A program made the position numbers and the translations under genes. This document shows, one piece after another, positions 16,223 through 39,341 of a stretch of DNA of 64,000 nucleotides (its first letter is position 1; the number at the start of each line of letters is the position of its first letter). This DNA comes from Myxococcales bacterium (GTDB taxonomy: Bacteria > Myxococcota_A > UBA9042). The stretch covers positions 69,704-133,703 of the forward strand of contig SHZF01000006.1 of NCBI GenBank assembly GCA_009692425.1. The letters are read 5' to 3'. Below the pieces are notes generated by a model that made no database searches, was not told the DNA's origin, and worked only from the letters and a program-made list of their open reading frames with translations.

Positions 16223-17455
16223 ATGCTGAAGGGTTTCCCGTTGCGTTGGCCCGGGCGGTTGGTCGCCACGGCGTGCACGATCGCTTGCATGATCGCGTGC
16301 GCGTCGCCGGCCCCGCCCATCTCTGGCAGCGGCGGCACGGGCCCGGGCGCGGACGCCGGCAGCGACAGCGCTACCGCCGCACCGAAGGCCCTCCTGTCGT
16401 TCCAGGTCAAGGACCGCGCGGTCGTATTCGGCTGGCCAGAAGACGAGTTCCTCTGGCACTGCCTCGCCTTGACGCAGTTGCGCACCGACCGCAGCAAGCC
16501 CGTCACGATGACGGCCTGTGGCAACTCCTCGGGACAGCCCACGATCACGTTTGGCGACCTTGGTGCCCCCGGCGTCGACTACGGCTGGACAGCGACTGAG
16601 GATTTTCGCGTCGGCCCCGCCACCTGGGCGCTGCGCGGCGGCTACAAGCAGTACGAGGAGAAGACAGACGTCGGCACCGGCACGCTCGAGATCGGCACGC
16701 ACTTCAACGGCCCGTGCCAGGGCAAGGACGCCACGAGCCTTGGCCTGGCCGAGCGGCACGAAACGGGCCCCGTCACGGTCGATGCGACGATCAAGGTGGG
16801 CGTTGCGGCGCGCGCCAACGCTGAGGTGATCACGCCCGAAATCTGGGTCGATTCCGTGCCGTTGCAGGGCAGCGTGGCGGCCGGCGGCACCTCGAAGCTG
16901 AAGTACACGTTCGACACGCCCGGCATGTACGTGGTCGAGGTGAACGACGTGGGCGGCGGCGCGATCCTGAACTGCGCGGTCTACGTCGGGCCTGCCGTGC
17001 CGCTCGTCGCGGTCGAGGTCGCCGGTGGCGGCGGGCTGGCGGCAGACCCGACGCCGCAGCAGTTGGCGGCGCTGCGCAAGAAACTGCTCGACCTCACCAA
17101 CCTGGAGCGCGCCAAGGTGACGCCGCCGTTGGGTCCGCTCGCCTTGCACGACAAGCTCAACGAGGTCGCGCAGTACCACTCGGGCAACATGGCTGCCGAG
17201 GGCTTCTTTGCGCACACCGACAAGAAGGGCATGGGCCCCGGCGAGCGCGCCAAGCTGTTCGGCTGGAGCGCGGGCATCGGCGAGAACATCGCGAGCAACC
17301 CCTCGGCCGAGGGCGCGCACAACGGCCTGTACTGGTCGGCCGGCCACCGCGCCAACATGCTCGGCAAGGACTGGACGCTGGTCGGCTTCGGCATCGCGAA
17401 GCAAAAGAACGGCGCGAACCTGCTGGTGACCGAAAACTTTTCCAGCGCGAAGTAG
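16223..17455 (+). CDS. CAP/SCP-domain lipoprotein
   Basis: 410 residues. Signal peptide with lipobox-like MIACAS. A low-complexity Gly/Ala linker follows, then an unassigned beta-rich domain (about 55-260). The C-terminal CAP domain (about 280-405) shows LRKKLLDLTNLERAK, the HSGNMAAEGFFAHTD and GENIASN motifs and HRANML, with the His and Glu residues of the CAP cavity. Bacterial members (YkwD-like) are secreted; their activity is unclear. Start ATG 16223 gives the best signal peptide. Confidence 0.85.
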   Translation: MLKGFPLRWPGRLVATACTIACMIACASPAPPISGSGGTGPGADAGSDSATAAPKALLSFQVKDRAVVFGWPEDEFLWHCLALTQLRTDRSKPVTMTACGNSSGQPTITFGDLGAPGVDYGWTATEDFRVGPATWALRGGYKQYEEKTDVGTGTLEIGTHFNGPCQGKDATSLGLAERHETGPVTVDATIKVGVAARANAEVITPEIWVDSVPLQGSVAAGGTSKLKYTFDTPGMYVVEVNDVGGGAILNCAVYVGPAVPLVAVEVAGGGGLAADPTPQQLAALRKKLLDLTNLERAKVTPPLGPLALHDKLNEVAQYHSGNMAAEGFFAHTDKKGMGPGERAKLFGWSAGIGENIASNPSAEGAHNGLYWSAGHRANMLGKDWTLVGFGIAKQKNGANLLVTENFSSAK

Positions 17456-17504
17456 CGACCCGGCGCTACGGTTCCGCCTGCCCGGCGTTCCCTTCACGCG
17501 CCGC

Positions 17505-17852
17505 TCATTCGTCGAGGTCGGCCCAATTCAGCCGGCTCACCACGACGGCCCCACCCAGCGCGGTTGCCGTGCCGGCCACCAGAAGCCCGGCCTGTTGCAC
17601 GGCCAGCGCTGCGTCGGCGCCTGTCGCCACCAGAGCCAGCCGCACCACGCCGAGCGCTGTCTCGACCACCGCCGACAGCCCCGGCTCGCAACTGCCCAGG
17701 CACGACGAGCGCACCAGCCTCAGGTCGATGCCTGCCGCCGCTGCCTGCCGCCGCGCCGCCGCCTGCAGCGCGCGCACCGAAGCGTGCGGCCCGGGCCCGG
17801 CGCGACACGACGTGCAGAGGTGGAGCACGACCGTGCGATCGACCTCGCCCAT
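17505..17852 (-). CDS. Small ferredoxin-like (DUF1636-type) protein
   Basis: 115 residues with CTSCR at residues 13-17 and CLGSCEPG near residue 51, the four-Cys pattern of thioredoxin-like [2Fe-2S] ferredoxins and DUF1636 metal-binding proteins. No signal peptide, so probably cytoplasmic. It lies 5 bp behind the LolA-like gene and is the last gene of a three-gene minus-strand operon. Role unknown; electron transfer or metal handling are the obvious options. Confidence 0.65.
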   Translation of the reverse strand: MGEVDRTVVLHLCTSCRAGPGPHASVRALQAAARRQAAAAGIDLRLVRSSCLGSCEPGLSAVVETALGVVRLALVATGADAALAVQQAGLLVAGTATALGGAVVVSRLNWADLDE

Positions 17853-17857
17853 TTGCG

Positions 17858-18643
17858 TCAGCGCCCCAGGCTCTCGGGCACAAAGATCGCATCTGAAAAC
17901 ACGGCCTTGTTGTCGATGTTGCGGGTTTCGACAGTCGTCGTGGAGCCGCGCACGTGGTGGCGCATCCGCAGCTTGTCCAGGGTCCAGCGCCCCTCGACAT
18001 CGCGTACCGACTCGGCCGTCAGCGTCTTGACCAGAGCGCCATCCTTGCTGCGGAATTCGACCTTGCGCGGCACGCCCTTGGCCACTTCGATCCATACGGT
18101 CACAAGGCCGTAGACTTCGTCCGGCAGGTTCGACCGCACCTCGATCTTCGCGCACCCCACGCCGCCGACGACTTCGTCGCCGAGCTTTTTCGCCTCGCCG
18201 TCGTTCAGGCTTTTCGACTCCAGATCGCCGAAGCTGAAATCGGTGCCCATGAAGTCCTGATCCTTCTGGTTGCCACCGATGCGCCGCAGTCGCTTCGTCT
18301 TGGGCAACCACAACCACTGTGCCGTGCGTCCGTCGGCTTCTTCGACCATCAGCAGTTCGACGCCGACCGAATCGGCCGGTTCGAGAAACGTCACGCGACT
18401 GCGCAGGCGGCCGTCCTTGCCGCGCTGGACCCGCGCCAACGTTCGCCACGTCTTCGACGCGCCGTTTTGCAACGTCTGCTGCAGCACGGTCGTCGACTGC
18501 CCGGACTGGAAGCCGGCGCTGTTGCGGTCGAGCGCGTCGCGCAGGATCTTGCGGGCTGCCGGGTCGTCGGCCGCATGGGTGGTTGCGCCGGCCAGGCCGA
18601 CAATGGCTGCGATGCTGGCAGCCACAACAGAGCGAGCGATCAT
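17858..18643 (-). CDS. Outer-membrane lipoprotein-sorting protein-like (LolA fold)
   Basis: 261 residues with a cleavable signal peptide (ends THA-AD). The mature part matches the LolA-like family PF17131: SRVTFLEPADSVGVELLMVEEADGRTAQWLWLPKTKRLRRI, then QDFMGTDFSFGDLES, and a C-terminal sheet. Periplasmic; related proteins often accompany RND exporters. Its ATG overlaps the TGA of the AdoMet-decarboxylase-like gene (ATGA), with GGGAGG upstream, so translation is coupled. Confidence 0.82.
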   Translation of the reverse strand: MIARSVVAASIAAIVGLAGATTHAADDPAARKILRDALDRNSAGFQSGQSTTVLQQTLQNGASKTWRTLARVQRGKDGRLRSRVTFLEPADSVGVELLMVEEADGRTAQWLWLPKTKRLRRIGGNQKDQDFMGTDFSFGDLESKSLNDGEAKKLGDEVVGGVGCAKIEVRSNLPDEVYGLVTVWIEVAKGVPRKVEFRSKDGALVKTLTAESVRDVEGRWTLDKLRMRHHVRGSTTTVETRNIDNKAVFSDAIFVPESLGR

Positions 18644-19452
18644 CCTGGACCTCCCGAGCCCGGGCGCGTGGCCAGCCAGCGCTTCGTGCGCTCGTGCTCG
18701 GGTGCCCGCTCCGTGCGCCGGGTACGATAGCCGCAACCGCGCGCGATGAGTTGCTGGGAGTGGGTGCGCGCCGGCAGCGCGTCGAGCAGCTTCGAAGCGA
18801 TCGCGTCGGCATTGAAGAACTTGCACGAAAAGATGTCGAAAAACGCGCGACCGGACCACTGCTCGATGTGGAGCGCGACGTGGCTCTCGGCGATCATCGT
18901 CATGGCCGACAGCACGGTGCCCTCGCGCGTCTTCGAGCGCAGCACGTAGGGTCGCATGATCGGCGTCATGTCGATGCGTTCGGGCAATTCGTCGAACAGG
19001 GCGAACAGGCCGTCCATGTCGTTGGGTCCGCTGTAGCCGTCGAGGTTGACGAGCAGGTGGGGGCCGAAGTCGGCCTCGGGGTGGACCGGTACGGCGTCGA
19101 AGGGCTTGGGGCGCTCCGCCGTGTGGATCTCGAAGCTGCGCGTCGGCAGGGCGACGCTGAACGCGCGCTGGGCCTCGGCGACGTCGAAGGCGCGCGGGGC
19201 GACGAGGTCGGCGAAGAAGCACTCGCGAAAGCTGAACGTGTGCAGTGTCAGGTGGCCGCCGGCGAGGAACAGGAACGCGGAGATGCCGCAATCGTCCGGT
19301 TCGACCCCGTTGTAGTACGGCAGCAGCATCGGCGGCATCGCAGGCTGCAAGCCGAGGCGATCGGGGAGTTCCTCCAGAATCTCCTGCACGAGTCGGATGT
19401 CGTCGAAGCGGGAGCGGTGGCCACCGAACCCGTCCATGGTAAAGTGCAGCAT
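18640..19452 (-). CDS. Two-domain S-adenosylmethionine decarboxylase-like protein
   Basis: 270 residues, twice the size of the usual SpeD/SpeH core. Two SpeD-like halves are visible. The first (1 to about 125) contains FLAGGHLTLHTF, where the Glu-Ser cleavage pair has become Gly65-Gly66. The second (about 128-245) keeps MIAESHVALH with Ser190 as the predicted pyruvoyl residue, and DIFSCKFFNAD. Family activity is AdoMet decarboxylation for polyamine synthesis, but recent relatives decarboxylate other substrates, so substrate is not certain. Start 19452 has GAGG 10 bp upstream. The stop overlaps the start of the LolA-like gene. Confidence 0.75.
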   Translation of the reverse strand: MLHFTMDGFGGHRSRFDDIRLVQEILEELPDRLGLQPAMPPMLLPYYNGVEPDDCGISAFLFLAGGHLTLHTFSFRECFFADLVAPRAFDVAEAQRAFSVALPTRSFEIHTAERPKPFDAVPVHPEADFGPHLLVNLDGYSGPNDMDGLFALFDELPERIDMTPIMRPYVLRSKTREGTVLSAMTMIAESHVALHIEQWSGRAFFDIFSCKFFNADAIASKLLDALPARTHSQQLIARGCGYRTRRTERAPEHERTKRWLATRPGSGGPG

Positions 19453-19507
19453 CGGGCGACGACCTCGGGGCGCCGGGGCGGACACCGGCGGTACAGGGCC
19501 GAAAAGC

Positions 19508-21058
19508 ATGGCGCAGACGCGCGTCCGATTCAACGTGGACACCCGGTGGGGCCGGGCGCTGCTCGTGGGCGCCGGGGTGCTGGTCGGCGCGCCGGGGCAC
19601 GCCCAGGAGCCGACGCTGTTCGCCGGCACGTGGAGCGCACGGCTCGGCCTCGACGTCCGGGCCGAAGACCCCGCCGAAGACGTGGCCGATCTGGGTTCCC
19701 GCCTCGATCTCGACGTGCGCCACCCCCTGGGCGACGGAATGCGCGTGCGCGTGGCCGGGCGCATGGCGTGGCGTGCGCTCGCGGGCCACGCGGGCGACGC
19801 GGTGCCCAGCCTGCGGCTGGACTGGCCGGCCTACGGACTGCGCCACGACGCGACCTTCGAGCTGCGCGAGGCCTATGTCGCCAAGGACTTCGGGCCGTGG
19901 GGGCAGTGGACGCTCGGCCGCGACGTGGCCGATTGGGGAGCGCTCGAACTGCAGAGCCCGCTGCGGTTGCTGAATCCGGTCGATTTCCGGTTCGGCTTTG
20001 CGGGCGCACTCCAGGCTGGTGGCGAGTCGGCGAGCGTGCCCGACTTCATGCTGCGCGGCGTGCGGCCCTTCGACGCCGGTACCCTCGAAGTGGTCGTGCA
20101 GCCGTTTTTCGCCCAGCACCGCTTCAGTGCCTTTGCCACGGATACGGCCGTGTTGCGCCCGGGCTTCGGCCCGCCTGAACAGGCCGCGCTGCTGCCGATC
20201 GTGCGCCGCCTCGACCTGCGGCTCGACCGTGCGCTGGGCGAGGCCGTGATCGCCCACCTCGACGCGCCGCCGCCATCGCCCGCCGCCGCATCCGTGGCGG
20301 CGCGCTTCAAGCGCAGCGTGGGGCCGGGCGACCTCGCGCTCGATGTTGTGTACGGTTGGGAACGACCGCCCATGCTCGCGTTCGACGCCGACGTCGGGCT
20401 GTTGCTTGGTGTGCTGGCGACCGCCGGCTTCGACCCCCAAAAGCAGTTCGATGCGTTCGCCGATGCCCACGTGGCGGCCGCTGTTCAGCGCGTGGTGGCC
20501 GCGAAAAAGGGCCCCGCCGACCTCGTGCGCGCGAGTTGGCAGCGCCGGTTCGTGCTCGGTGTCGAGTGGGCCGGTGCGGTCGCCGAGGGCTGGACCGTCA
20601 AGGTTGACCTCGCCCACAGCCTGCTTCTGGGCGGCGACGTCGGGCGGGTCGTCTACACCCGCGCATTCGCGCCGTTGCGCACGGCACTCAGCCAGGTCGG
20701 CCTCGGCGTAGAGTGGCAGCACGGCGATTCGATCGTGGTGCTGGCTGAGGGGCTCTACTCGTACGCCCACGATGTGCCCGACGGCACGCAGTTGTTCCTC
20801 CAGGCCCGCCACCACGCCACCGTGGGCGCCGGCGCGGTCGTGCGGTGGGGCGATCAGCAGCAGTGGACCCTGCAACTCGGCGGGCTGTGGGGCGTCAGCC
20901 TCGGCGACCTGATCCTGGCGCCACGCGTGGCGTGGGCATTCGGCGACGGCTGGACGGCCGGTGCGGGCGCGGTGATCGCGAACGGCCCGCCCGAGAGCCC
21001 CGGTGGCCTGTTCGATGCCGACGATCAGGTCGTGCTCGACGTGCAGCGCAGTTTCTGA
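19508..21058 (+). CDS. Large outer-membrane protein, probable beta-barrel
   Basis: 516 residues with signal peptide (ends GHA-Q). The mature part is a succession of amphipathic beta strands with Gly/aromatic turns (GRMAWRALAG, FELREAYVAKDFGPWGQWTLGRDVADWG) and ends in Phe, as outer-membrane barrels do. No plug domain is seen. It is divergent from the AdoMet-decarboxylase/LolA operon with only 55 bp between starts, so promoters overlap and joint regulation is likely. Transported substrate unknown. Confidence 0.65.
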   Translation: MAQTRVRFNVDTRWGRALLVGAGVLVGAPGHAQEPTLFAGTWSARLGLDVRAEDPAEDVADLGSRLDLDVRHPLGDGMRVRVAGRMAWRALAGHAGDAVPSLRLDWPAYGLRHDATFELREAYVAKDFGPWGQWTLGRDVADWGALELQSPLRLLNPVDFRFGFAGALQAGGESASVPDFMLRGVRPFDAGTLEVVVQPFFAQHRFSAFATDTAVLRPGFGPPEQAALLPIVRRLDLRLDRALGEAVIAHLDAPPPSPAAASVAARFKRSVGPGDLALDVVYGWERPPMLAFDADVGLLLGVLATAGFDPQKQFDAFADAHVAAAVQRVVAAKKGPADLVRASWQRRFVLGVEWAGAVAEGWTVKVDLAHSLLLGGDVGRVVYTRAFAPLRTALSQVGLGVEWQHGDSIVVLAEGLYSYAHDVPDGTQLFLQARHHATVGAGAVVRWGDQQQWTLQLGGLWGVSLGDLILAPRVAWAFGDGWTAGAGAVIANGPPESPGGLFDADDQVVLDVQRSF

Positions 21059-38725: not shown

Positions 38726-38754
38726 TTGACAGGGGCGCCGCCTGATGGTACTAC
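38726..38754 (+). promoter_or_regulatory. Candidate sigma-70 promoter upstream of the SHG-peptide gene
   Basis: TTGACA at 38726-38731 and TACTAC at 38749-38754 with a 17-bp spacer. It would give a leader of about 270 nt before the SHG-peptide start. Confidence 0.55.
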
Positions 38755-38965
38755 GAGACGGGGATCTGCCTTCCGCATTTCCAGACCCCCGGATGCGGAA
38801 CACGTCCTGCGAAAGAGGCTGAACGTTCTGCTGCGGTTCGTCGCCCCCTGTGGGTGCACCCGCGGCCTGAGTCGATGGAAGGGCTCGGGCAGTTGCGCGA
38901 TCCTCCGGGCGCTCAGTGGGCGCTTGGGGGAGCACGGTGGACGCTGGTCAGCGCACGTGGATGCC

Positions 38966-39016
38966 GGAAAGCGCACGAGCGCTTCGCAGAGCATGCTGGA
39001 AAGCGCACGAGCGCTT
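38966..39016. repeat. Two 19-bp direct repeats, each a hairpin, before the SHG-peptide gene
   Basis: GGAAAGCGCACGAGCGCTT at 38966-38984 and 38998-39016 (32-bp period). Each contains the inverted repeat AAGCGC-ACGA-GCGCTT. They sit directly upstream of the ribosome-binding site and could be an operator or two leader hairpins. Confidence 0.8.
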
Positions 39017-39032
39017 TGCACAAGGGGAGACG

Positions 39033-39341
39033 ATGAAGAAGACGCTTCCGAAGTTGAAGAAAAACGCTGCAGATTTCCTGTCGTCTGACGAGGGAACGAT
39101 CAGCGAGAAGCAGGAGGAGCGTGTCTCCACCTTTCTCGCGTTGTCGGGAGGCGACGTCCTGCCGGCGGGCGATCTGAACCTCTCGGCCGAACACTGCAGC
39201 CACGGCAGCCACGGCTCGCACGGCAGCCACGGCTCGCACGGCAGCCACGGCTCGCACGGCAGCCACGGCTCGCACGGCAGCCACGGCTCGCACGGCAGTC
39301 ACGGCTCGCACGGCAGTCACGGCTCGCACGGGTCGTGGTAG
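39033..39341 (+). CDS. Small peptide with (Ser-His-Gly)15 tail, RiPP-precursor-like or metal-binding
   Basis: 102 residues in two parts. Residues 1-55 form a leader-like region: basic start (MKKTLPKLKK), charged middle, then LALSGGDVLPAGDLNLSAEHC. Residues 56-100 are exactly 15 SHG units, and the protein ends SW. The single Cys55 stands at the border. Start ATG 39033 has AGGGGAGA upstream. No maturation enzyme, exporter or protease gene is adjacent. The layout (conserved-looking leader, a possible double-Gly site at 39-40, repetitive core) resembles ribosomally made modified peptides; a His-rich metal chaperone is the main alternative. The gene is not antisense to any known gene. Confidence 0.7.
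   Translation: MKKTLPKLKKNAADFLSSDEGTISEKQEERVSTFLALSGGDVLPAGDLNLSAEHCSHGSHGSHGSHGSHGSHGSHGSHGSHGSHGSHGSHGSHGSHGSHGSW
39198..39332. repeat. SHG-coding tandem repeat, 18-bp period at DNA level
   Basis: Fifteen codon triplets for Ser-His-Gly. The DNA alternates AGC and TCG for serine, giving an 18-bp unit CACGGCAGCCACGGCTCG. Confidence 0.95.

Follow-up and report, generated by a model that had tools for sequence, protein, structure and literature searches.

The window, a 64,000-nt stretch of DNA analysed as a whole, carries on its forward strand an open reading frame of 102 codons whose product reads MKKTLPKLKKNAADFLSSDEGTISEKQEERVSTFLALSGGDVLPAGDLNLSAEHC(SHG)15SW (Table 1). An earlier note on this DNA had described a 55-residue leader with one terminal Cys, 15 perfect Ser-His-Gly units and a closing Ser-Trp behind a ribosome-binding site; the translation bears out each part, with C55 the single Cys of the leader, and the ribosome-binding site is found as GGGGAG. 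At the DNA level the array has a period of 18 with 99% matches (Tandem Repeats Finder), and two 28-nt direct repeats (93%; 38961-38988 and 38993-39020) lie just upstream of the Shine-Dalgarno sequence. No maturation gene adjoins hxsA4 in the window, as the note had also stated. Within the order to which the genome belongs, the neighbours of the gene encode a sigma-70 region-2 protein, an L,D-transpeptidase and often a Ser/Thr kinase, with synteny retained in most of the 15 loci examined. The hxsA4 locus at 39033-39341 is a real, conserved and selected gene.

Table 1. Features of the hxsA4 locus in the window and of the hxsB operon on contig C32 of the same genome (locus L023).
Feature	Position	Strand	Evidence or remark
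hxsA4 precursor gene, 102 aa	39033-39341	+	NCBIfam NF038313, 92.3 bits, cutoff 55
Leader peptide, residues 1-55, motif LPxxKKxxxxFLSxEExxIS, HC at end	39033-39197	+	Leader alignment; motif found with adjoining HxsB in other phyla
Repetitive core (SHG)15	39198-39332	+	Translation, codon comparison, Tandem Repeats Finder
C-terminal Ser-Trp and stop	39333-39341	+	[SQ]W near-invariant in the HxsA4 family
Shine-Dalgarno GGGGAG	39024-39029	+	GGGG in every correctly started relative inspected in the order
Promoter-like TTGACA-N17-TACTAC (TTGACA-N14-TGGTA[CG])	38726-38754	+	14/21 upstream regions, 0.001 expected; a few genomes counted twice, independent cases somewhat fewer
Predicted 5'-leader RNA hairpin, stem UUCCGCA/UGCGGAA + UCC/GGA	38771-38800	+	Folding, covariation, covariance model
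rSAM-like protein without CX3CX2C motif	L023:7354-8205		Operon position 1
HxsC4/HxsC-like rSAM	L023:8444-10456		Operon position 2
HxsC-like rSAM	L023:10485-11714		Operon position 3
HxsD	L023:11856-12374		52.6 bits, cutoff 50
HxsD-like protein	L023:12371-12604		NF038315, 63.3 bits, cutoff 41
HxsB	L023:12601-14100		502.4 bits, cutoff 370

The peptide matches the NCBIfam model NF038313, 'His-Xaa-Ser repeat protein HxsA4', over positions 2-93 of its 93. The family thus already has a name, and the note's claim that this might be the least described element in the window does not stand; the resemblance to His-Xaa-Ser peptides and to the layout of a RiPP precursor, which the note had also proposed, is upheld by the family match and by the conserved leader. 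The leader alone scores 18 bits against the model, so most of the 92.3 bits come from the repeat, and it is the separate evidence from leader, enzymes and relatives that carries the case. A Pfam collagen match over the repeat (34.5 bits) was rejected, since it arises from the G-x-x spacing of residues and takes no account of what the leader and HxsB show. NF038313 matches were found in all 22 genomes of the order, 20 of them exceeding the cutoff; the window's genome holds one HxsA4 over cutoff, and a second such gene or another leader-bearing one was not found there. A profile of the leader likewise returns one strong homologue per genome in 21 genomes of the order, with two in one of these (G002), far beyond chance. 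HxsA4 is a known family of uncharacterised chemistry.

The check that the note had proposed, a search of Myxococcota relatives with the leader, thus finds homologues that retain it. The 12 aligned leaders have in common L5, P6, F15, L16, E20, Q27, H54 and C55. The GG pair at residues 39-40, which the note had read as a possible cleavage site, exists and is replaced in many relatives; a GG-leader peptide processed by a C39 peptidase was rejected because GG before the core is not conserved. Scanning GTDB genomes with the leader profile returned mostly Myxococcota MAGs, several of which bear freshwater or groundwater sample names, together with Elusimicrobiota, Paceibacterota and a spirochaete. 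Outside Myxococcota, the motif F-L-[ST]-S-E-E-[GA]-K-I precedes Ser-His repeats beside HxsB and usually also HxsD, the Elusimicrobiota and Paceibacterota copies lying just downstream of HxsB. Such a distribution would fit a common enzyme-recognition sequence, and we infer that HxsB or HxsD binds the leader. Among these Elusimicrobiota, Paceibacterota and Spirochaetes MAGs (L223-L234) the motif reads FLSSEEGKIT, and some of the peptides have Cys-rich C-termini (HCRGGWCNPRC). In other families of the class (L213-L221) the leader runs into a hydrophobic stretch, often with an ALA-like end and possibly an export signal, which the window's order has lost.

The repeat core is constant in both composition and length across the order, where 18 of 21 intact genes comprise exactly 15 units (the others 11, 11 and 18). 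In the 153 pairs of 15-unit genes, the 45 repeat codons show no amino-acid change despite 7-28 synonymous codon differences, among them switches between the Ser codon families AGC and TCG that each need more than one change, which argues for purifying selection on each of Ser, His and Gly. Throughout the phylum, unit number ranges from 8 in a truncated gene to about 50, and the C-terminal end is almost always SW or QW. Ala or Gly can take the place of Cys in the phylum, so family members can do without the Cys. The HxsA4 of genome G090 (L196) has about 50 His-x-Ser units.

HxsA4 and HxsB co-occur. Of 379 genomes sampled from the phylum, 125 encode both and 244 neither by comparison of the two hit lists, with five HxsA4-only genomes, all of them weak HxsA4 matches, and five HxsB-only genomes (Fisher p 7e-87, a value that ignores shared ancestry). 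Among the 52 genomes of the class, HxsA4 was found in every HxsB-positive genome and five lacked both; the three HxsA4-only cases comprise two incomplete genomes and one marginal match. Outside the class, HxsA4 follows HxsB on the same strand at a distance of 76-521 nt in 56 of the 74 genomes with listed hits, and within the class the two genes adjoin in families f2 and f10. In genomes of the window's order, HxsA4 and HxsB were never found on one contig; there, the unlinked arrangement is the rule.

The note had also proposed a genome-wide look for an HxsB-type radical SAM (rSAM) enzyme and had reasoned that any enzyme would act in trans. The same genome does encode one HxsB over cutoff, in an operon on another contig of the draft assembly (C32; the precursor is on C45). 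This operon is conserved. Both HxsC-like rSAMs carry CX3CX2C and fall under both the HxsC and HxsC4 cutoffs; the best HxsC score is 98.6 bits against 267.9, HxsC still being the top-scoring family for that protein. With a single HxsA4 over cutoff and no further leader-bearing gene found in the genome, the window peptide is the sole candidate substrate found. In f10 genomes G047 and G048 and at a spirochaete locus (L233), rSAMs resembling the rS2 and/or rS3 enzymes of the C32 operon lie at one locus with HxsD, HxsB and a precursor, which ties the C32 enzymes to an HxsA4-type peptide. HxsD was rejected as an RRE because its predicted fold, beta-alpha-beta-beta-alpha, is unlike the usual leader-binding RRE fold; the weak PDB matches of its model, of which none reaches E <= 0.001, are for the most part to ferredoxin-, KH- and Pcc1-like structures. 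The rSAM-fold protein without CX3CX2C that heads the operon is kept across the order and is possibly a non-catalytic partner. Directly after hxsB lie genes for two large Cys-rich proteins (L023:14163-17366 and 17357-19627) with weak choice-of-anchor-J matches; no same-place counterparts were seen in the relatives checked.

A less expected finding is the upstream promoter together with a covarying C-loop hairpin. The promoter that the note had proposed is present, and the element is conserved in relatives, with 17 nt from TTGACA to the TA of the second box and a distance of about 170-560 nt to the start codon. A generic sigma-70 scan did not flag 38726-38754, since TACTAC is far from TATAAT. 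The window's copy is the sole exact occurrence in the 4.94-Mb genome, for which reason the motif was rejected as the mark of a regulon. Directly downstream of the element, folding predicts a hairpin with a CCCC run in its loop in 17 of 20 sequences; in the window this is a CCCCC run in the apical loop (38786-38790). The folding z-score is -3.11 in the window and near zero to -2.6 elsewhere, single-sequence energies being mostly weak. RNAalifold predicted no pairs on a MAFFT alignment of the upstream regions, probably through misalignment of stems that differ in length, and the named stem was therefore tested instead. Its six pairs are 75% paired, versus 33-57% when slid, and show 11 double-change cells versus 4.8 in shuffles (0 of 500), a covariation that rests on few pairs in related sequences; further pair types showed no excess over shuffles. 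A covariance model matched hxsA4 loci of the order only, with no element at hxsB loci or in the other families searched, and Rfam gave no credible family for the upstream RNA. In every sequence with a clear start codon the ribosome-binding site is rich in GGGG, and the C-rich loop may therefore pair with the Shine-Dalgarno sequence and so regulate translation.

Our analysis suggests, with a probability of roughly 0.8, that the gene encodes an unlinked RiPP precursor of the HxsA4 family that is recognized in trans through its leader and altered at every His-Gly-Ser unit. In favour of this reading are the HxsA4 family match, the single copy, co-occurrence with HxsB, adjacency to it in relatives, purifying selection and the upstream element; against it count the lack of an enzyme near the gene, the HxsC-like scores below cutoff, the non-RRE look of HxsD, the five HxsB genomes without detected HxsA4 and the five with the reverse pattern. 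We infer leader binding, modification chemistry, metal binding and riboregulation of hxsA4 along the following lines. Expression would start from the gene-specific promoter about 280 nt upstream, giving a transcript that opens with the C-loop hairpin. The HxsB, HxsC-like and HxsD proteins encoded on C32 would recognize the leader motif, and the rSAM enzymes would then work along the 15 units with one repeated modification, to yield a stiff, imidazole-lined rod that may bind metal.

The 15 evenly spaced His residues and one Cys would also suit an unmodified metal binder, storing or buffering Zn, Ni or Cu and grouped with HxsA by its repeat alone, and the predominance of the repeat in the family score is consistent with such a protein. 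However, HxsA4 presence and absence tracks HxsB over the 379 genomes, often with the gene directly behind hxsB, the leader motif beside HxsB is kept across phyla, and Ser and Gly vary no more than His, although plain metal binding has no need of them; we thus consider a plain metal binder improbable. A low-complexity repeat grown by slippage, with little function, is scarcely credible: the 18-nt DNA period suggests past duplication of units, but across the order the units keep both their sequence and their count although synonymous codons have diverged, AGC/TCG switches included, and the conserved leader and upstream element already contradict it.

Other explanations accept the RiPP precursor and compete only over the bond. 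HaaB and ScaB join His C2 to the C-beta of Ala at i+2, MscB joins Phe to the C-beta of Ser, and HghC and HghB target Ser, His and Gly residues of bicyclostreptin (PMC11002830), while TvgB works on a TVGG repeat one residue at a time (PMC9062424). By analogy with these precedents, we tentatively propose that the single most likely bond joins the His imidazole to the Ser beta-carbon at i+2, as a cross-link spanning three residues. The HghC/HghB and TvgB examples speak for a Ser-O/His ether, a bond from His-N to Gly-C-alpha (HghC/HghB type), or epimerisation or another single-residue change per unit, and the several rSAMs of the operon suggest more than one bond. Nothing specific opposes these chemistries, which sequence does not separate from the His-Ser cross-link; we give them about an even chance, and taken together they are likelier than that exact bond. 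The fullest version of the precursor model, a split-locus RiPP with a copy-number-locked (SHG)15, a distant multi-rSAM operon, a 15-fold His-Ser cross-linked rod and a C-loop hairpin pairing with the GGGG site, is unlikely to hold in every part.

His-Xaa-Ser systems are annotated, and the literature searched yielded no paper on their chemistry and no report of HxsB activity or biochemistry. Since the substrate is minimal, one unit repeated, and the candidate enzyme set is clear, one mass shift per repeat could be enough to read the bond. The constancy of 15 units raises the question of what sets repeat number, and the unlinked precursor with its conserved upstream hairpin that of how such a peptide finds its enzymes. 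The steady repeat count and the upstream RNA element are what most merits follow-up.

Among known systems, HxsA4 (NF038313) shares leader, repeat and C-terminal Trp with the window peptide, which is unlinked from its maturases, whereas most genomes outside the class keep hxsA4 and hxsB linked. TvgA/TvgB (PMC9062424) resembles the window system in layout, with a short precursor and a repeat that an rSAM modifies one residue at a time, but the repeat is TVGG and the chemistry yields cyclopropylglycine. The triceptide enzymes HaaB, ScaB and MscB (PMC11002830) are likewise rSAMs that bond an aromatic residue, including His, to a C-beta at i+2; the C32 HxsB, however, falls below the cutoff of every cyclophane-maturase model matched, and membership is not claimed. 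The HxsABCD system (TIGR03976-TIGR03979) has its counterpart here in HxsB and HxsD over cutoff, two HxsC-like rSAMs and His-Xaa-Ser repeats, but differs in that the HxsC-like proteins are below cutoff, an extra rSAM-like protein lacks the cysteine motif and the precursor is A4 rather than HxsA. Many genomes of the order, e.g. G003 and G006 but not the window's, also encode a second HxsB (about 53-55% identical), and at two such loci (L128, L133) one rSAM adjoins HxsB, without HxsD.
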